Shown piece by piece: positions 1-28,719 of a DNA stretch of 64,000 nt. The position numbers and the translations under genes were made by a program. The stretch lies in assembly GCA_938003835.1 (NCBI GenBank), contig CALKXJ010000027.1, positions 1-64,000 on the forward strand, written 5' to 3'. The notes below the pieces were generated by a model that saw only the letters and a program-made list of their open reading frames with translations, was not told where the DNA came from and ran no database searches. Each line of letters opens with the position of its first letter. Within the stretch, counting starts at the first letter, position 1. This stretch comes from an uncultured Bryobacteraceae bacterium (GTDB lineage Bacteria; Acidobacteriota; Terriglobia; Bryobacterales; Bryobacteraceae).

Positions 1-62
1 CCCCACGAGCCCCAGGCTCTCGTCCCGGAGTACGATCATCGAACCACGGGCGCTTTCTATTC

Positions 63-281
63 TCAGCGCCATACAACCTCAGTGCTCTGAATTAATGGCC
101 ACGCGTCCGAGCGCTCGCCCGCGGGGAGGTCCCGGTACCGGTTCTCACGCCGGCAACGGCGCATCGGGCCCTCGACGGTGATGTATGCGCCACCGAAGGG
201 CAAGCGGTGGACCTCGCCCAACAGGACGCCCGGGCGCGCGGCCTCGTTGAGGACGAGAATGTCAGGGGCCACGAATGACAT
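63..281 (-). CDS. Possible small hypothetical protein (72 aa)
   Basis: A 72-codon frame begins at an ATG at 281 that is preceded by a GGGGAGG-like ribosome site about 14 nt upstream. The product has no motif I recognise; it contains a hydrophobic N-terminal stretch (residues 3-20) and an Arg-rich C-terminal half. It lies beyond the CRISPR-like repeat and could be chance coding in GC-rich DNA or a remnant of a neighbour to the left. No function is assigned, and nothing else is visible in positions 1-62. Confidence 0.25.
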   Translation of the reverse strand: MSFVAPDILVLNEAARPGVLLGEVHRLPFGGAYITVEGPMRRCRRENRYRDLPAGERSDAWPLIQSTEVVWR

Positions 282-316
282 AACGATCACCGGGCCCCTC
301 CCCAGTGAATCACGCT

Positions 317-348
317 GTCTCCCGGCCTGGTCGCCGAGGCCGGGAGAC
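317..348. repeat. Perfect 12-bp inverted repeat with 8-nt loop
   Basis: The arms GTCTCCCGGCCT and AGGCCGGGAGAC are perfect reverse complements around GGTCGCCG. The RNA hairpin would be very stable in either direction. There is no U-run, so it is not a classical intrinsic terminator. It sits about 70 nt beyond the solitary CRISPR-like repeat, in the stretch that would otherwise be array. Confidence 0.7.
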
Positions 349-416
349 TCTTGTGGTCTGCCGTTATGACCCAAAGTACCCGGCGGGCCCGGATCGAGGC
401 CCGGACCGGGTCCGGA

Positions 417-454
417 GCTTCAATGGGGCCGCGACCAATTGGTCGCGGAAATAG
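417..454 (-). CRISPR. Solitary CRISPR-like repeat unit
   Basis: On the minus strand this 38-nt unit starts with CTATTT, contains the perfect 20-bp palindrome CCGCGACCAATTGGTCGCGG (429-448), and ends CCCCATTGAAGC. A GC-rich palindrome followed by ATTGAAGC is the architecture of many type I CRISPR repeats. It lies about 190 bp downstream of cas4-cas1, where an array would be expected, and reads in the same direction as the cas operon. No second copy is visible in positions 1-416 or elsewhere in the flanks, so this is one repeat rather than an array. It could be a decayed or collapsed array, a naive array, or an unrelated palindrome. Confidence 0.5.
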
Positions 455-646
455 CCGGCGCGAGAAGTCTTCGGTTGTCAAATATCTGCGAGCTGCGTTG
501 CGAGCAGCCCCATGGCTCTGACAGTTTCGTTCGGGAATCGCTGGGTTGTTGGGCCGATTCACCTTGGTGAAAGAACAAGTTGCGAGCTGCGAGCAGCCTT
601 CCGGGACCGCTGACCGCCCCGGTGCTCGCAGCGGAAACCTCGAGCT
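455..646 (-). promoter_or_regulatory. Possible CRISPR leader between cas1 and the repeat
   Basis: This 192-bp gene-free stretch lies between the cas4-cas1 stop codon and the CRISPR-like unit. It is less GC-rich than the surrounding DNA, as leaders often are. It contains two imperfect copies of TGCGAGCTGCG (487-497 and 581-591), each near a GCGAGCAGCC. The role as a leader is inferred only from position and composition. Confidence 0.25.
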
Positions 647-2413
647 TCATCGTGTCACAAAAACGAAGTATTCGTCAATCTCTCCCTCGAGAAAGCGGGC
701 TAGCAGCCGAGCCTGGATCTCGAGCAGGCGCCGGTAGCTCACCCGGTAGTCGAACAGGGGGTGAGTGACCAGGGTGTCCATGCGGAGCTCGTAGGCACGG
801 AAGAAGGCCTTGCGGCCCTCCGGCGTGAGGGCGACCGCGGGACCCGCCTGGATGAAGCTCTTTTCGGTCACCATGCGCATGTTGATCGCGCTGAGGACGG
901 CCGAATCGGCTATCAGCGGCCGAAGCGGCTCCATCAAATCGAGGGCGAGCGCAGGGCGCCCAAATCGCGGCTGGTGGTAAAAGCCGATAAACGGATCGAA
1001 GCCGACCGCCTGGCAGGCGATGACCAGGTCCTTCGTGAGCAGGCTGTAGGCCAGAGACAGCAAGGCGTTGACGGGATCCCGGGGTGGCCTGCGATTGCGG
1101 CCGTTGAAGTCGAAGCGAAACCTCGCCGCCGTCTCTTCGTTGTCCTCAGTCTTGATCATGCCGGCAAACTCGCCGAAATAAAGTCGCGCCGCGTTTCCTT
1201 CGATCCCCAACAGCTCCTCGAGGTCGGCGGCCTGCTCGGCCCGGGCGATCATTTGCTTGAGCTCATCGAGCACCCGTGCTGGCGGCTCGAGATGGTTCCG
1301 CTGCAATAGCGTGCGCTGGTTTCGGATCTTTCCGGCCACCAGGCGCCGGGCGAGTTTCAGGGCGAACCATTCCTGCTCGGCCAGTCGGAACTGCACGCGG
1401 CGAAGAAAGACGTTCTTGGAGTTCAGTCCGGTGGTGATGCCGTAGAACCAGCCGCCTTGCGAGAAGTAGCAAATGGGCACGCCGGCCTCGCAGAGCGTCT
1501 GGATGGCCTGGGTGGAGAGCTGGATGTTTCCCATCAGGTTGACCTGGCAGATCTCGCCGATCCGCACCTCTTCGACGAGCGTGTCCTTGTCGCGCATCTG
1601 GAGCACCGCGCCCGTCTTGCCTACCCGCAGACCCTGGCGGTTCAAGTAAAGAGGGCGGAGCTCGTCCCGCGGCGTCACCAGCGGCCGCACTGTCGCCGGC
1701 GGTTTGCGCTCCGCAGGCTCCCTGTCGAACAAGGAGAGCTGCACCGGTCCGGCGGCCGGCTGAAAAGCGAGCATCGCCGTCTCGTCAGGCAGACAGATGC
1801 CGACCAGCGAGCATCCGGGACACTTGGGTGAATCGATCAGGGGCGGTGGTATCTGACCGGAGGCCGCGGTCGCGCGTGCCTGTCGAATCGTTTCCTCGAC
1901 CTCTGCCACCAGCGCCTCGTCAAAGCGCACGCGCACCCGCTGCCGGGTTCTGGCGTAGAAGATGACGCCCTCCTCGCATCGGTAGCCGTTGTCGCGCAGG
2001 ATGAGCCCTTGCAGGCCGAGCTGGGCGCGGTCGGCCGGCCAGGCCTCCAGGCCCGAGGCGGTCTCGCGCGGCGCGCCGTGCTTGTAGTCGACGGGAGTCA
2101 CGGCCCCGTCGGAGACCTCGAGGAGGTCGATTCGCGCGATCACGCCTAGCCGATCGCTGGCGAGGGTCACCGAGCGTGTCTTGAGCTGCTCGCCCTCGAG
2201 GGCTTCAGGCGGCGGAAGGGCGCCTTCACGCTTGTCGTCCACGCGGCGGTGGTCGAACTTGCCTTCAATGGTGTCGACGCTTTCGCGGAAAAGCCCCTCG
2301 ACCCATTCGTAGTAGAAGACCCGCGGGCAGTAGACGAATTCGTGAATCATGCGCGCGGGAATGTATTCGGGAACTGCTTCTGGGTGCGGTTGGCTCAGGG
2401 GCGTTCTGCTCAC
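647..2413 (-). CDS. cas4-cas1: CRISPR Cas4-Cas1 fusion, spacer acquisition
   Basis: This is a fusion of a Cas4 RecB-like nuclease with the Cas1 integrase, the arrangement typical of type I-G. From the GTG at 2413 the product is 588 aa. The Cas4 half has an N-terminal Cys in YCPRVFYYE (Cys29), the RecB motif PVDYK (Asp109, Lys111) and a Cys cluster CPGCSLVGIC (Cys198, 201, 207), consistent with an iron-sulfur Cas4. The Cas1 half begins near residue 250 and contains the GFYHQPRFGRPALALDLME segment with the metal-binding His and acidic residues. Cas4 trims prespacers and selects the PAM; Cas1 with Cas2 integrates them. GTG at 2413 is preferred because it starts just past the cas2 stop; a longer frame would overlap cas2 by 68 bp. 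Confidence 0.93.
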   Translation of the reverse strand: MSRTPLSQPHPEAVPEYIPARMIHEFVYCPRVFYYEWVEGLFRESVDTIEGKFDHRRVDDKREGALPPPEALEGEQLKTRSVTLASDRLGVIARIDLLEVSDGAVTPVDYKHGAPRETASGLEAWPADRAQLGLQGLILRDNGYRCEEGVIFYARTRQRVRVRFDEALVAEVEETIRQARATAASGQIPPPLIDSPKCPGCSLVGICLPDETAMLAFQPAAGPVQLSLFDREPAERKPPATVRPLVTPRDELRPLYLNRQGLRVGKTGAVLQMRDKDTLVEEVRIGEICQVNLMGNIQLSTQAIQTLCEAGVPICYFSQGGWFYGITTGLNSKNVFLRRVQFRLAEQEWFALKLARRLVAGKIRNQRTLLQRNHLEPPARVLDELKQMIARAEQAADLEELLGIEGNAARLYFGEFAGMIKTEDNEETAARFRFDFNGRNRRPPRDPVNALLSLAYSLLTKDLVIACQAVGFDPFIGFYHQPRFGRPALALDLMEPLRPLIADSAVLSAINMRMVTEKSFIQAGPAVALTPEGRKAFFRAYELRMDTLVTHPLFDYRVSYRRLLEIQARLLARFLEGEIDEYFVFVTR

Positions 2414-2417
2414 GGCG

Positions 2418-3706
<1,289 letters not shown>

Positions 3707-3723
<17 letters not shown>

Positions 3724-6616
3724 CCACCTCCCGGGCCTCTTCCTTTTCGGAGCAGCGGTGATCGGCCAGCCGGAGAATCGCCTCCAGATAGGCCAAGCCC
3801 CACCAGCCATAGCAACGCACCAGCACCCAAAACCGCTCGGGCACCCCACTGTCGAGCCTCCATAGGGCGTGGTTGTTTGGCGCGGACAGTAGAAGCCCGT
3901 CGTGGTCGAGTTTGAACGGGACCGGCTCCGATTCGAGGGCTACTGGGACGAACGGCCGCGCAAAGCCGTGATGCGCCGCGATCAGGTGTAGCACCAGGTC
4001 CCAATCGTTCACCTGTTTACGAAGGTCACCGGTGTTCTGGATCAGGGCCACCGACTGCAATTCGTGCCGGGCCCCGTCTGGGTATCGAGCCAGGCGACGC
4101 GCACGGGTGAGGGCGCGCCAATCCCGCGCAGCCAGGGGTGACTTGGCCAGCGGCTCCGAGGCGAGACTGGCTGCGATTTCGTCGCCACCGTGTAGCCAAG
4201 CTTGAAACCGCGGATCGGCCTTGCCCACATCATGCAACCATGCCGCCAGCGAAAGGTCGGCCGCGAGATTTGGCGGAAGCTCGAGCGACCGCGCGAAGCA
4301 TTCGACCCAAGCGCGTACTCCTCGGCTATGCTCAACCAACGAGACAGGCGCTACGGCCAGCGATGTCTCGGCGGCAGTGGAGAGATCCTCCCCTTTGCTT
4401 TTTCTGCCAACAATCGCGAAACTTCCATCCACTTCGACAGCGCGGCGCTTCCGGTCGGCGCCGAGCCGCGCGGAGAGCTGCCTGAGCCAGTCCGGCACGA
4501 GCTCAAGCTCGGAAAGTCGGACGAGACTCCCGGAGGGATCGGGCGCCTCCTCTTCGCCGGCGGCCCAACGCCGGAGATCTTCCAACAGCGAGCGGGCCTC
4601 GCCGTCCATGCCTGTCCGATCAAGCCAGGCGGCTGCGGCGTCCAATCGCAGCACAGGCCGCCTGCCGGCGGCTAGGGCCGCGGCATCGCCGATGTCCGGC
4701 ACGGGTGCCGTGTTAGCAGGATGCCAGCCGAGCTCGTCGCAGCCGCCATAGGTTGCGGGCACCACCACGACGTCCCCAGGGCGCACTTGACCCGCGCCGA
4801 TCACCTCGGATTCACTCGCGCCGCGCCATCGCAGAACTTGGCGAATGGGGGCTGCGGGCTGGTCGGCCGCGACGGCAGCCTCCAGATCGCCACCGTCCAC
4901 ATCGGCCTTCCCGGTGGAGCCGCTTATCCACTGCCGGAATTCCCAGATCGGAACGGCACAGCCTTCGCCCGGCGATGGCGGCTGCACCGCAGTGCGCTCC
5001 AGCCAGAGTTCGGGGCGGTCTTCAGGAAGATCGGCCCGCCAGACGACCGTGACATCGGCGGCGATGGCGACGTTGCCGTGAAGAAAGGCCCGGATCTCGG
5101 GCTCCGGCTCCGGCGGTGGACTTGTTTGCACCAGCAGATCGAGATGCGCCGGCAGCAGCCGGTAAGCTTCCCGCGCCGGCTGGCAGAGCCGGCTAAGCTC
5201 CTCCTTCTGGGGCAGGCGCGTCGCCAGCGGCTCGATGCCAAAGTCGACCAGAGGCGGCCTTGCTCGGGCTTGCTCGTTGAGCCAGTGCCAGGTGTGACAC
5301 AGCGCGTCGCCATAGATGGGGTCGGGATTCTCGACGGTGCCTTTGCGAGTCTTCACCTGGGAAGACGCAGCGACGACTGTGCCAGAGGGGCGACCCGAAG
5401 CGCCGATCTGCCCGAGGCGATTGCAGCGATCTCCGAGGCGATCCAGCCGCCCAAAGCGCTGGCGCAGGGCGTCGAGCGGAGCGATCTCCGTGATCAGGAA
5501 GTCGAAGTCGAAGTTGGCGCCAACCTCGATTGCCTGGGTCGCCACAACAGCCACGGGTTCCGCTGGTCGCCGTGCCGCCCCCGCCTCCAGCCAGGGCAAC
5601 CAGCGCTCGAGCCGTCGGTCCCGCTCCCAAGGCCGCACTTTCCCGGTGAGCAGGAGCTTGCGTTCGGCGGGTAATCGCAGGCCTTCATAGAGCGCTCGGG
5701 CGTCCCGGACGCGGTTGACGACGACACCCAGGACACCGGCGTGCATCGCCTTAAGCGTTTGCTCGGCGCGATTACGAATCGCCTCGACTAGCGCACCGCG
5801 AACATCCTTGCCACTGTCATCGACGAGACTCAGCTCGACTGGCTTTGAGGCCCGAAGACGGCGGCTCAGCACGGGATGATTCCGGTCATCGATGCTGAGC
5901 TCAAAGTCGGCCTTCTCGCCGAGCGTCGCTGACAAAAACACCGCCTCCAGGGGCGGGCCGACCGGCGTCTCGGCGAAGTGCTGCCACTTGCACTGGATGA
6001 GCTTCAGCGTCTGGCAGAAAGGGCGGGAGCAGTGCGCTTCGTCGACGAAGATGACTGTGTCACGACCCAGCAGTCCGGCATGGATCGGCCAACCACGGGG
6101 GCCGACGTCGCCGTAGGAGCGAAACAAGAGGCGGGATCCCACTTGATCGACGGTCGATAGCAGCACGGTGGGTTGTCCCGGCGAGCGCGCCCAGCGGTCG
6201 TCGGAGGGCAGGCCGCCGCGCAGCGTGGCGACGAGCAGAGGTTCGACTCCACCCAGGGCGAGCAGCTCCCGGGCCACCGGGTACAGCGGATCCTCCGGTT
6301 GATCCGCTGCTGTTCTGAGGCGTTCGGCGATCGCGTAGGCGCGCCTGGCCGCTTCGTCCACCACGACCCGCCGGTCGACGACAAAGGCCACTCGGCGCCG
6401 AGCGCAGGGCGAACCGGCGGCGAGCGCCAGCACGGCGAGGTCGATGAGGGCGGTCTTGCCACTCGCCGTCGGCAGCTCCAGCCACCGCGGCCACCGCGCC
6501 TGCGCCGCATCGGCCGGACAAAGCCAGTCGCGAAACACTCTGCGCTGCCATGGAAAAGGGTCGCGGTCGCTGAGGGCGCGAAACCAGTCGTCAAAACGGG
6601 CTGGGTCCAACCTCAT
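3707..6616 (-). CDS. cas3: Type I-G Cas3 helicase-nuclease with C-terminal HD domain
   Basis: Cas3 is recruited to DNA-bound Cascade, unwinds the target and degrades it. The 969-aa product has the helicase first: Walker A PTASGKT (residues 49-55), DEAH box in FVDEAH (193-196) and motif VI QRFGRLDR. The HD nuclease follows at the C-terminus, with WLHDVGK near residue 775 and AHHG further on. An HD domain after the helicase is characteristic of type I-G/I-U, unlike most Cas3 proteins. I chose the ATG at 6616 over the GTG at 6625: it forms an ATGA overlap with the csb2 stop and has a GGAGGAG ribosome site 9 nt upstream. All core motifs look intact. Confidence 0.93.
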
Positions 6617-8070
6617 GCGCGCCACTCCTCCAGTTGCCGAAACAAACCGTAGCCGAGATGTCGGCCGGCGCCGACGAGCACAGGACCAGCCACCGGTTGG
6701 TCGAACTCGAGCAGCACATGGACATGCGCGCGCACCGGCTTGCCGGGGCGACTGGGCAGCGGCGGAAAACGGAACGCCGGAGGGGCGCCGAGCGTCCAGG
6801 CCACCGGGGCGACGGCGACTTGAATGGGTTCCGGCAAACCGGCAATGAGGCAGGCCTCACGAATAAGTGCCCTGGCCTCTTCACCCCAAAGGTCTTTGGG
6901 GTACCTGCCCAGGACCACGGGCGTCACGCTGGACCAGAGTCGCGAGGGGCGCGTCCACGTCTCCGGCAAAAGCCCAACGCGCCGTTCCGAGGCGTCGCAG
7001 CGCTCCAGACGCCAGGTGCCCAGGCGCCCCAGCGTAAGTTCGTTGACACGGCCAAGGGCGCACAGACAGGCACTGCGCTGACGGGACGCGATCCCCGCTG
7101 GCAGCGCAGCGGCGACCCCAAGCAGGTGTGCGCGCGCAAACCGGTGACCTACATCGGCAAGAGGCAGCAATGCCAAGTGGGGCCCGGGGAGGGGACGAGG
7201 ATTCTCCGGGGTGCTGTCCGGCGCATGGCCGCTGATGATCTCGCTGACGGGCTGGTTGGCCTTGGCGAGGAGAGCCGAGCGCCAGACGGCCATCAGCTTG
7301 GCGCTGGCTTCCAAGGGGAGAGGCGGACCGTCGCTTTTGAGCCGGAAAACGAAGAGCTCGCGGTGATGACCCTGCGCAATTGCGACTGGACTCGCAGGCC
7401 GCCCATAGTTGACCCAGTCACTGAGCGGCGGCCGCCGGTTGCCCTCATAGGCCGCTACAAGCTCGGCAAACCGGCCCGGTCCCGGCACGCGCAAAGCGAT
7501 CACTCCGTCAGGACTCGGGATCCAGTCGGGTCGAAGATCATCGGATTGCAGGAGATCAACGGCGACCAGGCTGGACGAATGGCCCAGGCAGGCCACGCCC
7601 CGGGCGAGCTGGCATAGCTGGCTGGCGATTTCAGGCTCCGGATTGGCCTCGGGCCACCAGATCTGCACACGCTCCTCGCTGAGGGTGCCCACCGCGAATC
7701 GTCGTGGCTTGCGGTCGCGGGCAAGAAGGGTCTCCTGGATGAGGGGAAGGGGCTGTTCGAGGTATGTCTTGGTATTCTTATCCCGCTTTCGAGTAAGTTG
7801 ATCCAACTTATCATTCACCGGTACATAACGCTGCACCGCGTGGGTTGATAGCAGCTCGCCGCATCGCAGGAACGGAGGCTCCAGTTGCTCCAGCCATTCC
7901 AAAGCAGCCTTGCCGGTAGGCATCGAGCCGGAATCGGCCCAGGCCTGGACCAGCGCGCAAAAGAGACGGTCCGGGTGCGGGGGCCACTCGACTTCGTCCT
8001 TCTCGGCTCCCCGACCGACGTCGGCGGCGGTGAGCGCCCCCCGCAGATAGCGGATCTCGAATCCGAACAT
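6613..8070 (-). CDS. csb2: Type I-G Csb2, Cas5-Cas6-like Cascade subunit
   Basis: This 485-aa protein begins MFGFEIRYLRGALTAAD and has the WPPHPDRLFCALVQAW block typical of the GSU0054/Csb2 family. The C-terminus carries a glycine-rich RAMP-like loop, GAGRHLGYGLFRQL, as in Cas6-type RNA-binding domains. In I-G, Csb2 fuses Cas5-like and Cas6-like halves: it binds the crRNA 5' handle and is the likely pre-crRNA processing subunit. It starts 9 bp after csb1 and its stop overlaps the cas3 start (ATGA), indicating translational coupling. The length fits the family. Confidence 0.88.
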   Translation of the reverse strand: MFGFEIRYLRGALTAADVGRGAEKDEVEWPPHPDRLFCALVQAWADSGSMPTGKAALEWLEQLEPPFLRCGELLSTHAVQRYVPVNDKLDQLTRKRDKNTKTYLEQPLPLIQETLLARDRKPRRFAVGTLSEERVQIWWPEANPEPEIASQLCQLARGVACLGHSSSLVAVDLLQSDDLRPDWIPSPDGVIALRVPGPGRFAELVAAYEGNRRPPLSDWVNYGRPASPVAIAQGHHRELFVFRLKSDGPPLPLEASAKLMAVWRSALLAKANQPVSEIISGHAPDSTPENPRPLPGPHLALLPLADVGHRFARAHLLGVAAALPAGIASRQRSACLCALGRVNELTLGRLGTWRLERCDASERRVGLLPETWTRPSRLWSSVTPVVLGRYPKDLWGEEARALIREACLIAGLPEPIQVAVAPVAWTLGAPPAFRFPPLPSRPGKPVRAHVHVLLEFDQPVAGPVLVGAGRHLGYGLFRQLEEWRA

Positions 8071-8079: not shown

Positions 8080-9372
8080 TCACTCGCGAGCTTCCGCGGC
8101 CAGTTCGCGGCTTCTCGTGACTGCCTTGACCAGCTCGGCATTCGGGCGTAGCGTCAGGCAACCGTCCTTCCACGGAGGCGAGTCAGGCGCCACAGGCCAG
8201 GGAAGACCAGCTGACTTTGCCGCCGTGACGGCTTCTTCGAAGATTCGCGTGGCCGCATCGGGCGTGAGCCGGAATCTCCGCGATTCGCCCGCCGACAGCA
8301 ATTCGATCGACAGCTCGTTGCGGGGTACCAGGTCGCAACGGGAGCGCAGGCTGAAACCAGTGACCCACTGGCGAGCCAGCGCAGTCAGCGCCAGGGCCGC
8401 CAGAACCGTGCGTGCTGCAAGGTCAACCGCCGCCTGCTGCTCAAGGGTTTTCGAGTCCACCGGGAAGCGGAGGCGACGAAGCGCTGGAAGCGACAATACA
8501 GCAATCTGCCGGGCGAAGCGCACCGATACGCCCCCGTGGTTGTACTCGCTTTCAAAGTTGCGGCGCTGTTCCGGAGGGACTTTTAGCGAGGGAGTAACGT
8601 TGCCGAGGCCGATCTCGGAGAGCTTGCTTTGGCCCTTCTCCACGACGGTCCATGTCTTGTCGTCGGCGATGGAGATCGGAATCTTTTCGCCGGCGACGGT
8701 GATGAGCGGGTCGATGCGGCTGGCCGGTCGGCGGTTGTCCTCGGTCGCATCAATGCCGATGATCTCCGAAACCAGGGCGCGCTGGAACTTCTGGCCGAGG
8801 CCGCCCCGGGCGCCATGCGAGTCCCACACGCCGAAAATCAGAGCCGTGGGACATAGTTGAAACAGGCCGGTTGCCCGAGCGGGACTTGCTTCGTCCACCA
8901 AGCGGCCAATCGCGCTGCCTTTCTTCGGGTCCTTCGGGTGGCGGAAGGGCTTCCAGACGCGCTTGCCAGGAAAATCTTCTTCGATTTCGCTGGCTAGGAA
9001 TACAGCATCCGCGATGCGATGCGGCGCCTCGAGGGCGCTGAACAAGCCCACCTCGGCGGCGGTAGTACCGGAAAAGTCGATCTGAACGAGTGGAAAGGGT
9101 TTCTTGTCCGCAGCGGAGGTGCGATGCCACTGAAGCAGGGTGAGCTCCATGCGGTTCGCCTGGGATTGCACGCTGTCCAGCAAGACGCAGTTGATCGGAC
9201 TGCCGTCTATGATGCGCTTCTCCCGCGCGTAAACCCCACCCTGATAGGTCGGTGGAAAGATCTTGTCGCCGCTGCCGCCGGCAGGATCGAGGTCTGTTAT
9301 GGCGCGGAACGCGAAATCCGTGCCTGCCAAGGCGTTGCGGAGATCATCGTAGCCAAGAACGTCAAAACTCAT
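8080..9372 (-). CDS. csb1: Type I-G Csb1 (Cas7), crRNA backbone subunit
   Basis: This is the first gene of the cas operon, encoding the Cas7-like subunit that polymerises along the crRNA. The 430-aa product starts MSFDVLGYDDLRNALAGTD, followed by AFRAITDLDPAGG and FPPTYQGG, blocks characteristic of Csb1/GSU0053. A later segment, VFGVWDSHGARGG, resembles the Gly-rich RAMP core. I chose the ATG at 9372 over an upstream codon because it follows an excellent ribosome site, GGGAGGAAG, with 4-nt spacing. A promoter lies directly upstream at 9395-9424. The next gene, csb2, follows after 9 bp. Confidence 0.9.
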   Translation of the reverse strand: MSFDVLGYDDLRNALAGTDFAFRAITDLDPAGGSGDKIFPPTYQGGVYAREKRIIDGSPINCVLLDSVQSQANRMELTLLQWHRTSAADKKPFPLVQIDFSGTTAAEVGLFSALEAPHRIADAVFLASEIEEDFPGKRVWKPFRHPKDPKKGSAIGRLVDEASPARATGLFQLCPTALIFGVWDSHGARGGLGQKFQRALVSEIIGIDATEDNRRPASRIDPLITVAGEKIPISIADDKTWTVVEKGQSKLSEIGLGNVTPSLKVPPEQRRNFESEYNHGGVSVRFARQIAVLSLPALRRLRFPVDSKTLEQQAAVDLAARTVLAALALTALARQWVTGFSLRSRCDLVPRNELSIELLSAGESRRFRLTPDAATRIFEEAVTAAKSAGLPWPVAPDSPPWKDGCLTLRPNAELVKAVTRSRELAAEARE

Positions 9373-9394
9373 CGCTTCCTCCCAGAAACTCACA

Positions 9395-9424
9395 ATCGAA
9401 GCCCTTGCTTGCAAGGCTTGTCAA
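9395..9424 (-). promoter_or_regulatory. cas operon promoter with an operator-like inverted repeat
   Basis: On the minus strand a perfect -35 TTGACA (9424-9419) is followed after 18 nt by a weak -10, TTCGAT (9400-9395), leaving a leader of about 16 nt before the csb1 ATG with its GGGAGGAAG site. The spacer itself is an inverted repeat: AAGCCCTTGC (9399-9408), TT, GCAAGGCTT (9411-9419), symmetric except for one extra C. A dimeric regulator bound here would block polymerase. Confidence 0.5.
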
Positions 9425-12714: not shown

Positions 12715-15069
12715 ATGACGGAAGAAACGATCCGAAAACTGCCGCTTTTGCCGCTGAAAAATACAGCACTATTTCCGCACCTGCTGATGCCGCTGTCGGT
12801 GGGCCGGCCGCGCTCGGTCCTGGCGGTCGAGGCGGCCTTGAACACTGAGGAGAAGGAGCTGGCGATCTTCGCCCAGCGGGACGCCTCGGTCGAGGCACCC
12901 GGCATGGAGGACCTGTACACTTACGGCACCAAGGCCGTCGTGCGCAAGATGGTCCGGCCGACGCAGAACACCATCGAGCTGCTGGTGCTCGGCGTCGAGC
13001 GGCTGATGTTGCTCGCCGTCGAGGAGAAGGACGGCTATCTGGTGGCCAAGGTGCGCGTCGCTCCCCAGCAGGTGGAGATGACGGCCGAGACCGAGGCCTT
13101 GCAGCGCTCGGTGCTCGAGCTGGCCTCCAAGGCCATCTCGATGGCCCAGCCGCAGGCGCAGATCGACTTCTCGCAGATCGCCTCCAGCCAGGAGGACCCG
13201 ATGAAGCTGGTCTACGTGCTGGCTTCGATGATGGGTCTGGGGCTGGAAAAAGAACAGACGCTGCTCGAGGCGGCCACCTGCACGGACGCGCTGCGGCTGC
13301 TGCACAACTATCTCTCCCACGAGATCCAGGTGCTCGAGATCCGCTCGAAGATCGCTGACCAGGCGCGCAGCGAGATGAGCAAGGACCAGCGCGAGTACCT
13401 GCTGCGGCAGCAGTTGCGCGCCATTCAACAGGAGCTGGGGGAAAAGAGTCCGGAGCAGGCTGAAATCGACCAGTTGCGCGAGCGGCTCGAGGAGGCCGAT
13501 CTGCCCGAGGAGGTGCGCGCCGAGGCCGAGCGGGAGCTCCGGCGCTTGGAGCGGCTGCCGGTGGCGGCGCCGGACTACCACGTGGCGCGGACCTATCTGG
13601 AGTTCATTATCGAGTTGCCCTGGCGCAAGTCGACCGAGGACAATCTCGACATTGCCCGGGCCCGGCAGATCCTGGACGAGGACCATTACGATCTCAAGGA
13701 GGTCAAGGAGCGCATTCTTGAGCACCTGGGCGTGCTGAAGATGAATCCGAACGCCAAAGCGCCGATTTTGTGCTTCGTCGGGCCGCCCGGCACGGGCAAG
13801 ACCTCGCTCGGCCAGTCGATCGCGCGCGCCCTCGGCCGCAAATTCGAGCGCTTCAGCCTTGGGGGCCTGCACGATGAGGCGGAGCTGAGGGGGCACCGGC
13901 GCACCTACATCGGCGCCATGCCGGGAAGGCTGATCCAGGCCGTACGGCGAGCGGGCGCCAACAACCCGCTGATCATGCTCGATGAGGTGGACAAGCTCGG
14001 CCGCGACTTCCGCGGCGATCCCGCCTCCGCCCTGCTTGAGATCCTCGATCCGGAGCAAAACAACACCTTCCGGGACAACTATCTCGACCTGCCGTTCGAT
14101 CTCTCGAAAGTCTTCTTCATTACCACGGCCAACACGCTCGACACGATCCCGCAGCCGTTGCTGGACCGCATGGAGGTGCTGCGTCTGGCCGGCTACATCG
14201 AAGAGGAGAAGATGGAGATCGCCAAGCGCTATCTGATCCCGCGCCAGCGCGAGCAGGCCGGTCTGACCGCCGAGCAGTTTCAGATCACCGACGAGGCGGT
14301 ACAGGCGATCATTCGCAACTACACGCGCGAGGCGGGCTTGCGGCGGCTGGAGCGGGCGATTGCCCGGCTGGCGCGCAAGGTGGCGCTGCGTTTCGCCGAA
14401 GGAAAGACGGAGCCGGTCCTCATCAAGCCGGAGGATCTGGTCGAGTATCTCGGGCCGCAGCCCTTTTTCCCGGAAGAGGCCCGCAAGCAGGTGCCGCCGG
14501 GCGTGGCCACCGGTCTGGCCTGGACGCAGACCGGCGGCGAGGTGCTTTACGTCGAGGCGGCTCTGCTGCCCGGCGCCAAGGACTTGACGCTCACCGGCCA
14601 GCTCGGCGACGTCATGCAGGAGTCGGTCCGGGCGGCGCTCAGCTACATTCGGGCTCATTCGGCTGAGCTCGGCATCGACCCGGCGGTCTTCAAGGACAAC
14701 GGCGTGCACCTGCACGTTCCCGCGGGGGCGACGCCCAAGGACGGCCCTTCGGCGGGCATCACCGCCGCTGTGGCGCTGGCCTCGCTGTTCACGAAGATTC
14801 CGGTGCGCACCGACACGGCCATGACCGGCGAAATCACGCTCACCGGGCTGGTGCTTCCGATCGGCGGCGTCAAGGAGAAGGTTCTGGCGGCACGGCGCGC
14901 CGGCATCCGGCGGGTGATCCTGCCCCGGCCGAACGAGAAGGACCTGCGCGAGCTGCCCGATGAAGTCCGCAGCTCGACCGAGTTCATCTTCGTCGAGCGG
15001 ATCGAGGAAGTGCTCGCCGATGCCATGCCGGCGCTGGCCGAGCGGCTGGCGCTCATGGCGGCGCGTTGA
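12715..15069 (+). CDS. lon: ATP-dependent Lon protease
   Basis: Lon degrades misfolded and regulatory proteins in the cytoplasm. The 784-aa protein has the N-terminal substrate domain beginning LPLLPLKNTALFPHLLMPL, a coiled-coil region around residues 220-280, the AAA+ module with GPPGTGKT (356-363), and a C-terminal Ser-Lys protease domain. The catalytic Ser679, in PKDGPSAGIT, and Lys722, in VKEKVLAARR, fall at the same numbers as in Escherichia coli Lon. I start it at the ATG at 12715, since a longer frame would overlap hsp20. It converges on the CARF gene with a 19-bp gap. Confidence 0.97.
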   Translation: MTEETIRKLPLLPLKNTALFPHLLMPLSVGRPRSVLAVEAALNTEEKELAIFAQRDASVEAPGMEDLYTYGTKAVVRKMVRPTQNTIELLVLGVERLMLLAVEEKDGYLVAKVRVAPQQVEMTAETEALQRSVLELASKAISMAQPQAQIDFSQIASSQEDPMKLVYVLASMMGLGLEKEQTLLEAATCTDALRLLHNYLSHEIQVLEIRSKIADQARSEMSKDQREYLLRQQLRAIQQELGEKSPEQAEIDQLRERLEEADLPEEVRAEAERELRRLERLPVAAPDYHVARTYLEFIIELPWRKSTEDNLDIARARQILDEDHYDLKEVKERILEHLGVLKMNPNAKAPILCFVGPPGTGKTSLGQSIARALGRKFERFSLGGLHDEAELRGHRRTYIGAMPGRLIQAVRRAGANNPLIMLDEVDKLGRDFRGDPASALLEILDPEQNNTFRDNYLDLPFDLSKVFFITTANTLDTIPQPLLDRMEVLRLAGYIEEEKMEIAKRYLIPRQREQAGLTAEQFQITDEAVQAIIRNYTREAGLRRLERAIARLARKVALRFAEGKTEPVLIKPEDLVEYLGPQPFFPEEARKQVPPGVATGLAWTQTGGEVLYVEAALLPGAKDLTLTGQLGDVMQESVRAALSYIRAHSAELGIDPAVFKDNGVHLHVPAGATPKDGPSAGITAAVALASLFTKIPVRTDTAMTGEITLTGLVLPIGGVKEKVLAARRAGIRRVILPRPNEKDLRELPDEVRSSTEFIFVERIEEVLADAMPALAERLALMAAR

Positions 15070-15087: not shown

Positions 15088-16152
15088 TCAGACCAGCGTT
15101 CGCAAGTACGAGGCGACGAGCTCGCACTGGGCCTCGCCTGCGGCGGTCGTTTCCACGGCGAGCGGCAAAGCAAGGTCGCGGGCTTCGTAGCGCAGGCCGA
15201 TGACGCCGCCTTCTGCATCGAGGACGCGAAGGCGCGCGCCGCGACTCATCCGGTCATCGTAACGCACGAGACGGACGGCGTCGATTTCGCAAAGGCGCCG
15301 GACAAGGCGCTCCCAGCCTGGAGGACGATGATGCGCCGCGGCGGCAAGCCGATTCTTTTCCTCCGGCGGCCTTGGATCGGGCGGGGGCCAGCGGAGGCGC
15401 GGCCCCATCGCCAGGCGTTCCTGCGCGACTCGGTTCAGCAGATCACCCGCAGCAGAAAGATAGGTGTAGCCGTCTGCGGCATCTTCGACCAGGAAGCGCA
15501 AATCCGGCCGCGCTCTCAGCCAACTTTCCACGTCGGAGGTTCTCCGCGGCTCTTCATCGATCCAGCGGAAGAAATCACGGTGCCGCCCAACGAACTCGGC
15601 GTCCCAGGCCAGCGGAAGCCGGGGCAGCCGGACAAGCTCCCGGTGAAGCTCGTGTAGGTAGACGACCTCGATCTCCAGCAAAGCGCCGATCAGGTTGAGG
15701 AAAGCGATCTCGGCCTTGAAGCCGCCCGTGGCGCAGAAAATCGGAGTGCGGCCCTGCTGGCGCGCCGCGCGAACCCGTTTGAGCACGATCTCGACCAGGG
15801 CCTTGAGGCCGCGGCTGAAGTTGCGGGCGCCGTAGCCGAGCTCACCGATCTTCTCGAGCGGCACCTCCCGCACGAGGCCGCGGTAAAACTCCGCGAGGCG
15901 CTCGGCGCAGAAGCGCCCTTCTGGGGTGTCGGAATGCAAGAGGCTGAGCGTGTCGCGTTCATCGAGATCAAGCAAGCGTAGCGTGTTGGTCTCGGCGCTG
16001 GCTCTGGCCGGGTCGGCCTGCCTCAGCCAGTCATCCACCGCCGCCGGAGCCGGCAGCGGCTCCCCCTGCGCCTGGTTCCAGCCGCTCCAGGGTCGGTCAT
16101 CGCGGTTGGTGAGCAGGGAGGTTCCGACCGTGCAAAGAATCTCGCGAGCCAT
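15088..16152 (-). CDS. CARF-domain protein, APE2256/Csm6-like
   Basis: This 354-aa protein has the hallmarks of the APE2256-type CARF fold, which binds cyclic oligoadenylates in type III CRISPR signalling: an N-terminal strand with CTVGTSLLTN (residues 7-16), the LLHSDTPEGR loop (71-80) and the CATGGFKAE ligand-binding motif (140-148). The first 170 residues are the CARF domain. A linker rich in Pro and charged residues (about 250-270) leads to a C-terminal domain (about 275-354) with DAVRLVRYDD and GVIGLRYEARDLALPL, which I cannot assign. It could be an RNase effector such as a RelE-like or HEPN variant, a regulator, or a ring nuclease accessory part; no R-x4-6-H HEPN motif is obvious. No cas10 or Csm/Cmr genes are in the window. 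It is convergent with lon. Confidence 0.82.
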   Translation of the reverse strand: MAREILCTVGTSLLTNRDDRPWSGWNQAQGEPLPAPAAVDDWLRQADPARASAETNTLRLLDLDERDTLSLLHSDTPEGRFCAERLAEFYRGLVREVPLEKIGELGYGARNFSRGLKALVEIVLKRVRAARQQGRTPIFCATGGFKAEIAFLNLIGALLEIEVVYLHELHRELVRLPRLPLAWDAEFVGRHRDFFRWIDEEPRRTSDVESWLRARPDLRFLVEDAADGYTYLSAAGDLLNRVAQERLAMGPRLRWPPPDPRPPEEKNRLAAAAHHRPPGWERLVRRLCEIDAVRLVRYDDRMSRGARLRVLDAEGGVIGLRYEARDLALPLAVETTAAGEAQCELVASYLRTLV

Positions 16153-16190: not shown

Positions 16191-17072
16191 TCAACGCCCT
16201 CCGAGCTCGGCCAGGCGCTTCTTTTTGTACTCCTCGTACTCCTTGATCAAGGCCGGATCGAGCGGGCTGCCGTAAATCTCGTGGGATTTGTACTTGCCCG
16301 TCCGGAGCTTCATCTTCGTCCACTCGTCGTGCACTTTAATCTCCAGGGCCGCGTCCACCACCTCCTGGATGAGCGCGGGCGGAACCACCGTGATGCCTTC
16401 GGCGTCGCCCACGATGACGTCGCCGGGAAGAACGGTGACGCCGCCGATGCGTACGGGCACGTTGTAGCCGACAAGGGTCGCGTCCCGGATTGCGTCCGGG
16501 TGCGCCTGCCGGTAGTAGATCTGCGTATCGACCTGCCGCATACCCTCGAGATCGCGGATGCCGCCGTCTACCACGAGGCCGCCCGTCTTGGTTGCGATAG
16601 CGATATAGGTGGCAAGGTTGTCGCCGACGAAGCCGGGTGAAGAACCGAACATGTCGACGACGAGCACGTCACCGGGCTGGAGCTGATCGATGACGTATTG
16701 ATGCGCGCCGCGCGGGAAGCCTTTCTTGGCTTTGAGCCCGCCCATTACCACGGATTCCAGGTCGGGGCGCTCCGGCATGAAGATCGCCGTCAGGGCGCGC
16801 CCGGCAAGCTTGCGTCCCGGGTGGATCGTCTTGAAATTGCCCTCGAAGGAGAGCCGGTGGTTGTGTTTGCGCAAGACGCCCCAACAATCCTCGGCCGAGA
16901 GCTCGCGCGCCCGCTCGAGCAGCGACTCGGGCACCTTGGGCCGGCCGTCAGGGAAGCGCTCGTAGGGGCTCCTGGCGGTGAGCTCGATCATCTGTTCGCG
17001 GCTCAGCTCCCACAGCTGAGCGCGCAACGGCAGCGAGAACAGGACAGCAGCAAGGATCGGAGCGATTCTCAT
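16191..17072 (-). CDS. Exported RraA/HMG-aldolase-like protein
   Basis: The protein (293 aa) belongs to the RraA-like fold, which includes 4-hydroxy-4-methyl-2-oxoglutarate aldolases. The core shows QPGDVLVVDMFGSSPGFVGD, a GGLVVDGGIRDLEG block with the conserved GG-RD arrangement, and PGDVIVGDAEGITVVP. Unusually for the family it carries a signal peptide, MRIAPILAAVLFSLPLRAQ, so it probably acts outside the cytoplasm. A charged C-terminal tail follows the core. It lies 24 bp downstream of the MlrC-like gene in the same direction, so the two are probably co-transcribed. The substrate cannot be inferred. Confidence 0.8.
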   Translation of the reverse strand: MRIAPILAAVLFSLPLRAQLWELSREQMIELTARSPYERFPDGRPKVPESLLERARELSAEDCWGVLRKHNHRLSFEGNFKTIHPGRKLAGRALTAIFMPERPDLESVVMGGLKAKKGFPRGAHQYVIDQLQPGDVLVVDMFGSSPGFVGDNLATYIAIATKTGGLVVDGGIRDLEGMRQVDTQIYYRQAHPDAIRDATLVGYNVPVRIGGVTVLPGDVIVGDAEGITVVPPALIQEVVDAALEIKVHDEWTKMKLRTGKYKSHEIYGSPLDPALIKEYEEYKKKRLAELGGR

Positions 17073-17096
17073 GCCAGGAAATCTACCACAAAGCCC

Positions 17097-18632
17097 TCAC
17101 TCCGGGCCAAGTCCGAACAGGGGCCGCCGGGCGTTTCGGTAGGTGAAGCGGGTCGGATTGACGGAGGTCAGCCCGGGTGTGTCGACCTCGATGATGCGCG
17201 CGGCGATCGGCTCGTAGGCGGCGCGAGGCGCAATGGCGCCCTTGACCGTGAGGATCTTTTGCCGCTCGGGATAGATGCCGCAACTGATGAGCTGATGTAA
17301 CGAGTTCGGGCTCGAGCGCCGCGTCGTCAGCACCAGCAGGTTCTCCAGATCGCGCGTCGAGCCCTCCGCCTCGATGACGGCCGTCAGGCCCCGGTCGTAG
17401 TAGCGGCCGCCGCCGTGCCGAACCTCGGGCTCGATGTAATGGCCCAGGTGAAGCGACTTCACCCGGCCGCGCACCCGCACCGGCGAGCCGTGGAAGCGGT
17501 CCGTCTTGCCGCCCACCTCCATGTCGAAGGCGCCGCCGATACCCGCCCGCGCCGCCGCGTGATAGGCTTCGGCGTCGGCGATCACCACCACCCAGCCTTC
17601 GGCCTTCTGCCGAATCAGCTCGTTGAGGAGAAAGGTGCTATCGCCTGCGGAGCCGCCGCCGATATTGTCGCCCATGTCGATGAGCACCACCGGGTGCTTG
17701 TCGCTCGCCTTGGCCAGCCGGACCGCCTCGGCGGCGTCGGGAAGCTTCAGCTTGAGCTGGTGGCGGCTCTCCCAGAGCATGTCAGAGAGGCGTTTGGCTT
17801 CGCGCTCGGCGAGCGCGGGATCGTTGTCGGTCACCACGATCACGCTCGGACCCATCTGGGGGACATCGGCGTATTGATAGCCGCCGGCGACGCTGGCGGC
17901 GAGGATCTTCGGATTCTGCTCCAGGCGGCGGGTCTCCTCGACAATCGGCAGAAGCGGAGGGCGCTTCGTGTACTGGAAGACAATGTTATAGATCATCGGC
18001 GGCTTGGCGAGCGCCTGCGTCGGACGGACTTTGCCGCGCACCGTATCGGCCATGATGCGCGCGGCCTGGAGACCCCGCTCGAAGGTGTCAATATGCGGGT
18101 TTTCCTTGAAGGTGATCAGCGCCGTCGAATCCCGGACGATCTCCGGGGCGACATTGGCGTGGAAGTCGTGGGTGACGACGATCGGCATTTTCGGTCCCAT
18201 GGCCTCGCGGACGCGCCGCACCAGCTCGGCGTCGCCGTGCGGGTAGTTCTCCACCACCATCGCGCCGTGCAGGGCGAGCAGGACGCCGTCGAGTTTCGGC
18301 GCTTGACGGAGCTGTCGGATCAGTTCCCGGCTCATCGTCTCGAACGCCTCGGCGGCAACCGGACCTTTCGGAGTGGCGCCGACGATCACCGTCGGGTAGA
18401 GCTCCAGGCCGTAGCGTTTGGCGCCCTCGACGTAGCCGGCTACGGTGGAGCGGCTCTTGGACGCCTCCTCCGCCCACCGTGCTCGATCGAGCTTGGGCGG
18501 CCAACCGAAATCTTCAAGCGTGGTCCTGGCGGGGTTGAAGGAGTTGGATTCGTGGCTGATGCCCGCCACTGCGATGCGGGGCTGCTGGGCGAGCAGTGTC
18601 TGGGTTGCCAGCAGGAGGATGAGCACAATCAT
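17097..18632 (-). CDS. Exported MlrC-like (M81) metallopeptidase-family protein
   Basis: This 511-aa protein matches the MlrC/DUF1485 family, named for an enzyme of microcystin breakdown but widespread in bacteria with unknown substrates. It has RIAVAGISHESNSFNP near the N-terminus, GVLLALHGAMVVE with a metal-ligand His, VVTHDFHAN, and a VVLIDMGDNIGGGSAGDS segment with further metal-ligand-like residues. I use the ATG at 18632, which gives a signal peptide MIVLILLLATQTLLAQ. The RraA-like gene follows, so the pair may process one exported or periplasmic substrate. Confidence 0.83.
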   Translation of the reverse strand: MIVLILLLATQTLLAQQPRIAVAGISHESNSFNPARTTLEDFGWPPKLDRARWAEEASKSRSTVAGYVEGAKRYGLELYPTVIVGATPKGPVAAEAFETMSRELIRQLRQAPKLDGVLLALHGAMVVENYPHGDAELVRRVREAMGPKMPIVVTHDFHANVAPEIVRDSTALITFKENPHIDTFERGLQAARIMADTVRGKVRPTQALAKPPMIYNIVFQYTKRPPLLPIVEETRRLEQNPKILAASVAGGYQYADVPQMGPSVIVVTDNDPALAEREAKRLSDMLWESRHQLKLKLPDAAEAVRLAKASDKHPVVLIDMGDNIGGGSAGDSTFLLNELIRQKAEGWVVVIADAEAYHAAARAGIGGAFDMEVGGKTDRFHGSPVRVRGRVKSLHLGHYIEPEVRHGGGRYYDRGLTAVIEAEGSTRDLENLLVLTTRRSSPNSLHQLISCGIYPERQKILTVKGAIAPRAAYEPIAARIIEVDTPGLTSVNPTRFTYRNARRPLFGLGPE

Positions 18633-18747
18633 GCCCCTTCTTTTAGCACGATGGGTTGGCTTTGCGGGGCAGAGTGTATTCTTGGAATCGTGAGCAGCCA
18701 AGGCAGCCTGTCCGCGCGAGTGAGCCCGACGCAGGAGAAGACCATCC

Positions 18748-18990
18748 GTGACGCGAACCCGTGGTGCGGCGAAGTTCTGCCTTTGCGAACATGCGGAGAG
18801 CGTTGCGGGCTACTTGCTGAGGTCAATCCGCGGATTGGACGTCGCCGGTTTCCCCGAGCGGGCAGCCGAGCCGGAAGTGGACTTTGTCCTCACCAGCGGG
18901 GAACAGAGAGTCCCGCTGGAGGTGAAATCTCGGCGGAGGGTCGACAATCCGCGAATTGTCTGCCGGCCGCTTTCGGCCTTTCTGCTCCTC
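18748..18990 (+). pseudogene. Remnant of a DUF4143-type ATPase C-terminus
   Basis: The frame encodes VAGFPERAAEPEVDFVLTSG followed by PLEVKSRRRVD, the PD-(D/E)xK-like signature of the C-terminal domain of DUF4143 AAA ATPases. Those proteins are about 400 aa; here the whole N-terminal ATPase is missing and the reading frame loses similarity after about residue 75. The remnant lies between the MlrC-like gene and a small membrane protein. I read it as decay of a formerly complete gene. The right limit is approximate. Confidence 0.55.
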
Positions 18991-19034
18991 AAGGGAGCCG
19001 AGGGTCAGGAGCGCCATGTGAGAATTGGGGCCAG

Positions 19035-19325
19035 ATGCCGGGCAGCACTCTCGAGGAGCGCATCGCCGGTCTGGAGGGCTCCTACATGGAGCTCACCAAG
19101 CGCATCGGTGACCTGCGCCAGGAGACACACCGTAGCCCTGATCTCATCCGTGCCGAGCTCAACGGCCTGCGGGTGGAGATGAATTCCAATGCGGCGCAAT
19201 TTCGCGCCGAGATCCGGGACCTGCGAGCCGAGCTCCGCAGCTCCTCCCGCTGGACGATGTCGCTCGTGCTGATCAACTGGCTTGGCGTGCTGGCGGCGAT
19301 CTTTCTCGTCGCCGGAAAGCCTTAG
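19035..19325 (+). CDS. Small coiled-coil protein with C-terminal membrane anchor
   Basis: This 96-aa protein has a heptad-rich helical region (residues 5-68, including LEERIAGLEGSYMELTKRIG) and one C-terminal transmembrane segment (about residues 73-91, MSLVLINWLGVLAAIFLV). The layout is a membrane-tethered coiled coil, common beside phage or DUF1640-like proteins, but no family can be named. It follows the DUF4143 remnant and ends 27 bp from the convergent pgk stop. The ATG at 19035 lacks a strong ribosome site. Confidence 0.55.
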   Translation: MPGSTLEERIAGLEGSYMELTKRIGDLRQETHRSPDLIRAELNGLRVEMNSNAAQFRAEIRDLRAELRSSSRWTMSLVLINWLGVLAAIFLVAGKP

Positions 19326-19351
19326 GCGGCCCGGCCGAGCCGCTCTCCGGC

Positions 19352-20521
19352 TTACTTGTCCGTCAGCACCGCCACGCCGGGCAGCTCCAAGCCGGCCAGA
19401 AACTCGAGCGAAGCACCGCCGCCCGTGGAAATGTGCGTGATCTTGTCGGCCACGCCGGCCGCCTTGATCGCCTTTTCGGAGTCGCCTCCGCCAACCACCG
19501 AAACCGCGCCCGATTCGGCCACGGCCTTGGCCAGCGCCACCGTGCCCGCGTCCCACGGCGGCATCTCGAAGACGCCCATGGGACCGTTCCAGATAATCGT
19601 CTTCGCGCTGCGGATCACTTCTGAATACGCCGCCACCGTCTTCGGGCCGATGTCCACGCCGAGTTTATCCTCGGGGATCGCCTCGACGACCTCGCTCGGC
19701 GCGCCTGCGACCAGCTCCGCGGCGACGACGTGATCGACCGGGAGCATCAGCTTGTCGCCGGCTTGAGCCAGAACCTCCCGGGCGAGGTCGACCTTGTCTT
19801 CCTCCACCTTGCTTTTGCCGGTCGGCCGCCCCTGGGCCCGGAGGAAGGTGTATGCCATCGCGCCGCCGATCAGCAGCCGGTCGACGATCTTCAGCAGGTT
19901 CTGGATCACCTCGATCTTGTCGGAGACCTTCGCGCCGCCGAGCAGCGCCACACACGGCCGGTCCGGGTTGGTGATCGCCTTGCCCAGATACTCCAGCTCC
20001 TTCTCCATCAACAGGCCGGCTGCGGCGACCGGCAGCACCTTGGCGACCCCCACCGTGGAGGCGTGCGCGCGGTGAGCCGAGCCGAAGGCGTCTTGGACGA
20101 AGACGTCGGACCCAAGAGCCAGCTTCCTGGCAAACTCGGGATCGTTCTTTTCCTCCTCGGGGTGGAACCGAACGTTTTCGAGCAGCAGAACCTCGCCCGG
20201 AGCGGGCTTCATCGCTTCCACCTCCGGGCCGATGCAATCCGGAGCCATCTTCACGGGCCTGCCGAGCAGTTCCTCCAGGCGCCGGGCCACCGGCTTCAGG
20301 CTCATCGTCGGATTCGGCTTGCCTTTGGGCCGGCCGAGGTGGCTCGCCAGGATGAGCGCGGCACCCTGATCGAGCACATACCGGATCGTCGGCAAGGAGG
20401 CGCGGATCCGCTTGTCGGAGGTGATCGTCTGGCCGTCTTCACTCAACGGCACATTGAAGTCCACGCGCATGAAGACGCACTTGCCCTTCAGATCGAGATC
20501 GCGAACGGAGAGTTTTGGCAT
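19352..20521 (-). CDS. pgk: Phosphoglycerate kinase
   Basis: Pgk transfers a phosphate from 1,3-bisphosphoglycerate to ADP in glycolysis. The 389-aa product is of normal length and shows [17 protein letters not shown], the [16 protein letters not shown] segment, and the nucleotide-loop pair WNGPMGVFE and [10 protein letters not shown] near the C-terminus. I chose the ATG at 20521, which has a GGGAGGAA ribosome site 4 nt upstream; a longer frame would run into the sugar-kinase gene in another register. It is 32 bp after that kinase gene and may be co-transcribed with it. Confidence 0.97.
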
Positions 20522-20553
20522 CAGTTCCTCCCAGTAAACCTCGATGGTACCAT

Positions 20554-21495
20554 TTACGAGGTCGGACTCCGAAGTTCGGGCGCCAGGCCCGCAGCCCGCC
20601 AGGCCTCGATCAGGGCCCCGCATTCGGGCGGGTGGCGCGGCTCGACGCATTGGGTGCCCGCTTCGAGCTCGACCAGCGTCCGGAAGCGCTCGAGCAGAAT
20701 CGCGCTCTCGAAGACCCCTCCGATGTAGGAAACGACGACGGGCTCCCCTTCGTGGAAGAGCTGCCGGCGGACGGCGGCGGCGAGCGTCGCCAGTTGCTGG
20801 GCGGCTTGATGCAGCACCTCGATGGCGATCCGGTCGCCCTGGCGGGCCGTCTCGTCCACCAGCCGGGCAAAACCGGCGATGCGTGGCCGGCTGTAGCGGC
20901 GGGTGTAAAACAGGTGCAGAAGCTCGTTGGCGCTTGCCGCACCGGTGGCCTCGAGCAACGCCGGCTTGAGCGCGGTCGCCGGGCCCCAGCCCTCTTCGAA
21001 GCGGAGCGCGGCCCGGAGGGCCTGCCGGACAATGTCGAATGCTCCGCCTTCGTCGCCGAACACATAGCCCCAGCCGCCGGCGCGGGCTGAGCGCCCTTCC
21101 GAGTTGCGCCCGAAGGCGATGGAGCCGGTGCCGGCGATGACGACGATGCCCGGCGCGCCGCCCGTTGCGCCGACCAGCGCGACTACGGCGTCCGTCGTTA
21201 CGATAAGGCGTTCGGTCCGGAGCATCCCGGCGAGGATTTCGCGCTTGTCCTCCGGGCCGCCGCTGAAGCCCAGGCACGCCGCCTCGAAGGCGATCCCGTC
21301 AGGCTCGAGACCCGCCGCCTGGCAGGCGCGGCCCAACGCCTGCTCGATGGCGGAGACGAATTTCCGCCGCCCGCCCGGCCCTTTCACGTGATTGCAAGGT
21401 CCGCCGACGCCAGTGCCGAGGATCCGGCCCTCACCGTCGGCAACGACGGCTACTGTGGCGGTCTGTCCGCCGTCGACACCCAGGAAGTAGCCCAC
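20554..21495 (-). CDS. BadF/BadG-family kinase, N-acetylglucosamine kinase-like
   Basis: This 313-aa protein has the ASKHA fold: the phosphate-1 loop [19 protein letters not shown], an adenosine-like [12 protein letters not shown] motif, and [20 protein letters not shown]. The family includes N-acetylglucosamine kinases and the ATPases that activate benzoyl-CoA reductase. The lack of a Cys cluster favours a sugar kinase. The start is a GTG at 21495, only about 4 nt from the predicted transcription start, so the message may be nearly leaderless. It is divergent from the ceramidase-like gene and upstream of pgk. Confidence 0.82.
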
Positions 21496-21502
21496 CGCGC
21501 CC

Positions 21503-21513
21503 TATAGTATACT
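21503..21513. promoter_or_regulatory. Overlapping divergent -10 boxes
   Basis: The palindrome AGTATACT (21506-21513) gives TATACT on both strands: rightward at 21508-21513 toward the ceramidase-like ATG at 21524, and leftward at 21511-21506 toward the kinase GTG at 21495. Predicted starts lie within about 5 nt of both start codons. No convincing -35 is seen on either side. Confidence 0.4.
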
Positions 21514-21523
21514 CGTCGCTGCC

Positions 21524-23026: not shown

Positions 23027-23036
23027 AAAGGCCGGC

Positions 23037-24296: not shown

Positions 24297-24300
24297 CGGC

Positions 24301-25572: not shown

Positions 25573-25736
25573 GCGGCGGCGACGCCGTCGGAGGGGAAAC
25601 TGGAGGGGAGGCGGGTGCACGGAGGCGGCCCGCAGCGGCCGTTCCCTTTCGAGATCTCGGGCGAGGTTGGCCGGCGCCATCAACACAGAGTACGTGCCGA
25701 AGGCAAAAATGTTCCGGCCCGCGGTGCCCCGAGCAG

Positions 25737-26651: not shown

Positions 26652-26748
26652 AAGGGCCTTGGCCGGGCATGCTTCATGCCTCAACCTCTCTTTTTCTTAT
26701 CGGCTTGTCGGCCGGAGAATCCACGAGCAAGCGGAGGGCCAATCGGAT

Positions 26749-27456: not shown

Positions 27457-27531
27457 GTCCGAATTTCCGATCGGCGAGGGGGGCTTTGCCTTAACCCTTC
27501 GCAAACAGGCAACATCGTTCCTGCAACGCCG

Positions 27532-27566: not shown

Positions 27567-27605
27567 TATGTTGTTTTTCGACCGACTGTTCCGGGGGATT
27601 GCCTG

Positions 27606-28070: not shown

Positions 28071-28088
28071 CTCAAGGGGAGGCGCCCG

Positions 28089-28712: not shown

Positions 28713-28719
28713 TCCGCTT

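Follow-up and report, generated by a model that had tools for sequence, protein, structure and literature searches.

Results

Organization of the CRISPR-Cas locus

We analysed a 64,000-nt stretch of DNA, hereafter the window, which comprises bases 1-64000 of contig C27 (126,134 bp) from the genome assembly of an uncultured Bryobacteraceae bacterium (5.0 Mb, 38 contigs). Near its left end, the window holds a single repeat of the clustered regularly interspaced short palindromic repeats (CRISPR) type, followed by a leader and a type I-G cas operon. Window base 1 is base 1 of C27 and region 1-416 is the contig tip; therefore, the absence of a second repeat in 1-416 is judged on the contig tip only. 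Table 1 summarizes the features of the locus.

Table 1. Features at the left end of the window, with the evidence for each. ORF, open reading frame; aa, amino acids.
Feature	Position	Strand	Evidence or remark
Contig tip beyond the repeat, unique in the genome, without repeat copy	1..416		suspected misjoin or strain variant
72-aa ORF in the tip, coding-like codon usage	63..281	-	codon score
Perfect 12-bp inverted repeat, 8 nt between arms	317..348		strong hairpin
Type I-G CRISPR repeat, 36 nt, leader-proximal copy	417..452	-	three more exact copies on contig C8; hairpin
Leader, 194 bp, cas1 stop to first repeat	453..646	-	position and motif common to relatives
cas4-cas1 fusion, type I-G	647..2485	-	Pfam Cas_Cas1 8.8e-89, Cas_Cas4 2.8e-16; PADLOC Cas1g 4.3e-176
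cas2	2418..2708	-	Pfam Cas2 1.4e-20; PADLOC Cas2g 2.2e-28
cas8g (large subunit)	2743..3849	-	PADLOC Cas8g 6.2e-62; no Pfam match
cas3, helicase then HD domain	3707..6625	-	PADLOC Cas3g 1.6e-225; Pfam Cas3 C-terminal and Cas3_HD
csb2 (cas5-cas6 fusion), expected CRISPR RNA (crRNA)-processing subunit	6613..8070	-	Pfam Cas_GSU0054 1.2e-27; PADLOC Cas56g 1.7e-118
cas7 (csb1, GSU0053)	8080..9414	-	Pfam Cas_GSU0053 7.8e-44; PADLOC Cas7g 4.2e-44

The original prediction, made from the window alone, had described a complete type I-G cas operon, and this description was borne out. The cas7, csb2, cas3, cas8g, cas2, and cas4-cas1 genes match profiles near the full profile length; hence both the effector genes (Cas7/csb1, Csb2, Cas8g, and Cas3) and the adaptation genes (the Cas4-Cas1 fusion and Cas2) of type I-G are present. 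The cas7 profile (153 positions) spans only residues 38-224 of the 444-aa protein. The cas4-cas1 product has 612 aa, with Cas4 at residues 46-232 and Cas1 at residues 279-566.

The repeat occupies positions 417-452 and reads GCTTCAATGGGGCCGCGACCAATTGGTCGCGGAAAT on the plus strand. On the minus strand, which is the strand of the cas genes, it reads ATTTCCGCGACCAATTGGTCGCGGCCCCATTGAAGC, beginning with ATTTCC and ending with CATTGAAGC. It had first been delimited as a 38-nt unit at 417-454. The unit is a real repeat, but its length is 36 nt and bases 453-454 belong to the leader, because three copies on contig C8 share exactly those 36 bases and diverge on both sides. The perfect 20-bp palindrome described earlier was located at 429-448; no other perfect palindrome of this length occurs in the 64 kb, where 0.16 would be predicted from composition alone. 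The RNA of the cas-strand repeat was predicted to fold into an 8-bp stem with a 4-nt loop (-15.8 kcal/mol, z = -3.5). With 36 nt common to four copies and a stable hairpin, the repeat agrees with type I-G, for which a 36-nt repeat length and Csb2 cleavage of a 36-nt repeat are described in excerpts of PMC9638904 and PMC12915315.

The placement of the repeat, described as about 190 bp past cas1 in the expected orientation, was also as claimed: it lies on the minus strand, 194 bp from the cas1 stop. Likewise, no second copy follows in the adjoining 416 bp, where the best match had 17 mismatches in 36 positions, no better than random window segments, and no degenerate repeat in 1-416 was better than random. 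The window as a whole holds one match to the repeat at up to 3 mismatches. In Rfam, nothing reached the gathering score; the match of the repeat to CRISPR-DR16 stayed below threshold (20.9 bits against a gathering score of 35, E 0.14). An exact search of IMG/VR for the repeat pattern was negative. Phage, plasmid, and collection searches reported here and below may omit the window's own genome or a very near one, and their absences are silent on it.

The leader lies directly after cas1. As in the window, a TTTGA-type motif and a GCTA end precede the repeat at the same place in four related genomes (G008, G029, G020, and G044), to which the whole-leader identity is 54-57%; in a near-identical contig described below, it is 192/194. 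For the leader and repeat search in most other genomes, up to 12 candidates were scored per genome. Promoter and terminator scans of positions 1-700 returned none, including no sigma-70-type match.

A lone repeat raises the question of a solitary repeat unit outside any array, acting as an RNA anti-CRISPR (Racr) or as a regulator. According to passages of PMC10651486, solitary repeats in viral genomes, apart from cas genes, act as RNA anti-CRISPRs, and the single copy at this site resembles them. However, the repeat occupies the usual position of a first repeat, with a conserved leader before it and with cas1 and a complete cas operon beside it, and neither a viral relative of its flank nor the exact pattern in IMG/VR was found. 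We consider this explanation extremely unlikely.

Repeat copies at the end of contig C8

A search of the whole genome for the unit had been proposed as a check. We submitted the first 20 bases of the repeat, with up to 3 mismatches, against the whole assembly. As a result, three exact copies were found at the end of contig C8 (C8:483752, 483826, and 483899). Together with the C27 copy they make four, all sharing the 36 bases, and no further copies were found in the 5.0 Mb assembly. The C8 copies lie 73-74 bp apart and enclose two whole spacers (38 and 37 nt); a third spacer is cut off by the end of C8 after 26 nt. The three units on C8 are non-contiguous with the cas operon in this assembly. 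No protospacers were found for the two whole spacers in phage records, nor for all three spacers by exact 20-22-mers in IMG/VR.

The crRNA strand of the C8 array reads away from the contig end, and therefore its leader must lie beyond that end. The leader search of the same genome, in which 12 of 32 candidates were scored and, separately, all 38 with a shorter leader stretch, found no second leader in the 5.0 Mb assembly; the sole leader found is that of C27. In turn, C27 begins with the leader side of an array in the same orientation as that of C8. Because C8 ends on the leader side of its array and the sole leader found lies on C27, these two contig termini are compatible with a single array read in one direction.

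We therefore read the lone repeat as probably the first repeat, at the leader end, of an ordinary type I-G array that was split by the assembly and whose other known copies end C8. The original prediction had listed an array that was lost, one that never gained spacers, or a mini-locus working on an array elsewhere. It was right that an array stands at another contig end. Rather than a separate array, it is most likely the same one with its middle missing, since the sole leader found is here, the C8 array runs off its contig on its leader side, and the near-identical contig differs past the repeat.

A near-identical contig in a public genome

In an exact 36-mer scan of the genome contig collection, one record was returned: CALJWR010000371.1 (L054/L081; 9395 bp), from a metagenome-assembled genome (MAG) titled Verrucomicrobiae. 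Its first 9380 bases correspond to window positions 9796-417 with 99.84% identity (15 substitutions). The match ends exactly at 417, the outer edge of the repeat; the contig then continues for a final 15 nt that do not agree with the window, which is what a variable first spacer would produce. For the first-spacer position, no convincing phage, plasmid, or IMG/VR source was found. Two of the 15 substitutions, at 457 and 471, lie 5 and 19 bp from the repeat; with evenly spread substitutions, two or more within 30 bp would be expected with a probability of about 0.001, and this clustering perhaps reflects strain differences or strain mixing at contig ends. The Verrucomicrobiae-titled bin has its own lon, 48% identical in protein, and other clpB-like DNA at 70-71%. 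Because these are far less similar, CALJWR010000371.1 is probably a stray, mis-binned contig in a public species-representative genome, and the title of its bin was rejected as a guide to the phylum of the host.

Comparison with related genomes

The cas1 gene was searched in 60 other genomes with a cutoff of E ≤ 1e-60 and was present in 11. At least two repeats adjoin cas1 in 10 of these 11, about 71-75 bp apart in the listed spacings; the remaining one (G012) is truncated, its contig starting within cas1. Contig starts also fall within arrays of this repeat family in G008, G026, and G029, of which G026 has no cas1 match. In G030, one of the ten (listed contamination 10%), cas1 is cut short and followed by two repeats and then by NN between inverted copies of one stretch, so that its array region looks like a misjoin or misassembly. 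This site is L075 (G030:C435), at about 2930-3150, in a public genome. Since the contigs of G008, G026, and G029 start in arrays and that of G030 appears misjoined, loci of this kind are repeatedly broken in the assemblies of the group, and one apparent misjoin is among the cases.

Two further genomes hold isolated units. A single repeat of the same family, with 3 mismatches, lies well inside a contig between two ORFs at L059 (G033:C56), 12781-12816. It is the only repeat match in G033, which has no cas1 match at E ≤ 1e-60, and it may be a relic or a solitary repeat unit. At L063 (G027:C14), 8329-8364, an isolated repeat-like unit with 6 mismatches stands on a contig apart from the arrays of that genome.

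The contig tip

No second copy of the tip was found in the genome, where the search returned only the tip itself, its own inverted repeat, and short weak pieces. The tip had no match in the Verrucomicrobiae-titled bin, and none in the other 199 of 200 family genomes, with 3 first-look candidates scored per genome. The 72-aa ORF had no relative in Pfam, PADLOC, PHROGs, phage records, or IMG/VR.

Several candidates were rejected. Chance was taken to account for four short pieces (E 0.4) and for 20 phage records (E 0.8-3). A peptide pattern fitted 22 stretches, none of which was confirmed. Weak ORF matches at E 8e-5 to 4e-4 per genome (3 of 395 other genomes) and at E 0.003-0.1 (16 of 60 other genomes) were judged to be about as many as expected for that number of searches.

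The assembly has 76 contig ends in 5.0 Mb, and the chance of an end within 416 bp on this side is 0.006 if ends are random; therefore, the break was probably caused by the array. The tip itself is most likely a misjoin or wrong extension of the contig, or else a minority-strain path or strain variant; a trailer left by array collapse and an insertion are the less likely alternatives.

In a real collapse, all spacers would have been deleted by recombination or by replication slippage involving the first and last repeats of the cas-side array. What remains would be the leader, a single repeat, and the trailer flank native to the site (1-416), with C8 as a second array served in trans. The end of the CALJWR010000371.1 homology exactly at the outer repeat edge is also predicted by such a repeat-repeat deletion, spacer deletion that keeps repeat boundaries is described in parts of PMC8047081, and the coding-like ORF and host-like base composition of the tip point the same way. 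However, the C8 array would then need a leader of its own, and no second one was found in the assembly. Moreover, a single isolated repeat should not interrupt an assembler, and yet the contig terminates after another 416 bp, at the low chance given above for random ends. Ten relatives have DNA that can be read beyond cas1, and none of them shows a collapse; we regard it as unlikely here.

The other alternative is a real insert with a small gene between the first repeat and the rest, the array resuming beyond base 1 and on C8. The orientation of C8 and C27 fits one array under this explanation too, and, of the genomes searched, only this one has the tip, which holds both an ORF and a strong hairpin. 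Against it, neither a mobile-element relative of the tip or the ORF nor a source of the insert was found, and 416 bp are too short to show a far end; an insert seems very unlikely. Taken together, it is rather improbable that the cas-side array collapsed to one repeat, as an empty acceptor supplied with guides in trans from C8, or that a coding insert split the array after the first repeat.

Other genes in the window

A Cas_APE2256 protein (Pfam E 4.2e-29) is encoded at 15088-16152 on the minus strand, convergent with lon. We take this family to be CARF-type. The protein is apparently an orphan, because the nine large ORFs that were tested from 16191 to 31591 included no type III gene.

Discussion

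The locus shares with known type I-G systems (formerly I-U; cas4-cas1 fusion, csb1/csb2/csb3, cas3) all six genes and the 36-nt hairpin repeat. As in the cas1-bearing relatives, its leader comes directly after cas1 and the array is on the cas strand. The differences are that one repeat stands on C27 and the other three known copies on C8, which concerns the assembly only, and that the whole C8 spacers have 38 and 37 nt, whereas an excerpt of PMC12915315 gives a mode of 35 in Bifidobacterium lactis. Fragmentation at arrays, collapsed repeats, and chimeric contigs are reported for short-read assemblies in passages of PMC6617893. The array-linked breaks and misjoins of draft genomes and MAGs are matched here by C8, which ends inside an array, by CALJWR010000371.1, which ends 15 nt past the repeat, and by the apparent G030 misjoin. 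In contrast to these, 416 bp of coding-looking DNA follow the C27 repeat, and their source was not found.

Several observations weigh against an array split by assembly. The 72-aa ORF is host-like in its codon usage, with a codon score of 0.21 per codon against 0.34 (standard deviation 0.19) for the window genes and -0.46 (standard deviation 0.17) for off-frames. The guanine-cytosine content of the tip is 0.668 against 0.661 for the window, and the tip resembles real bacterial DNA. No source for it was found in phage records, IMG/VR contigs, or plasmids, which leaves a spacer-to-phage walk of the assembler unsupported. No contig spans C8 to C27. The C8 flank gene had no relative in 11 other genomes (E ≤ 1e-30), hence synteny does not back the join. 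Finally, the outermost C8 repeat is a perfect copy, whereas terminal repeats can carry substitutions, as parts of PMC8047081 describe.

Under the split-array reading, which we prefer, the cas operon would be transcribed leftwards, with the leader following cas1, and the array would start at 452 and should continue leftwards. The assembly would have broken inside the array, leaving the leader end on C27 and the trailer end, with three repeats, two whole spacers, and part of a third, on C8, the middle being missing. New spacers enter CRISPR arrays at the leader-repeat junction, which here is the place of the repeat at 417-452. By analogy with characterized systems, Cas4-Cas1 and Cas2 would add spacers at the leader, the array would be transcribed from the leader, and Csb2 would cut the repeat RNA. 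A complex of Cas7, Cas8g, and Csb2 would then act with Cas3 to destroy matching DNA. In type I-G, according to excerpts of PMC9638904, Csb2 cuts the repeat RNA 4 nt past the hairpin, which yields an 8-nt handle, and remains at the guide's hairpin end; type I complexes recruit Cas3 for target destruction.

When only one repeat is seen at a contig tip next to a full cas operon, loss of the array should not be concluded until the remaining contig ends and any near-identical contigs have been checked. The analysis also contributes to this family a complete type I-G locus, including the leader and four copies of the repeat; loci of this kind recur in several of its genera.
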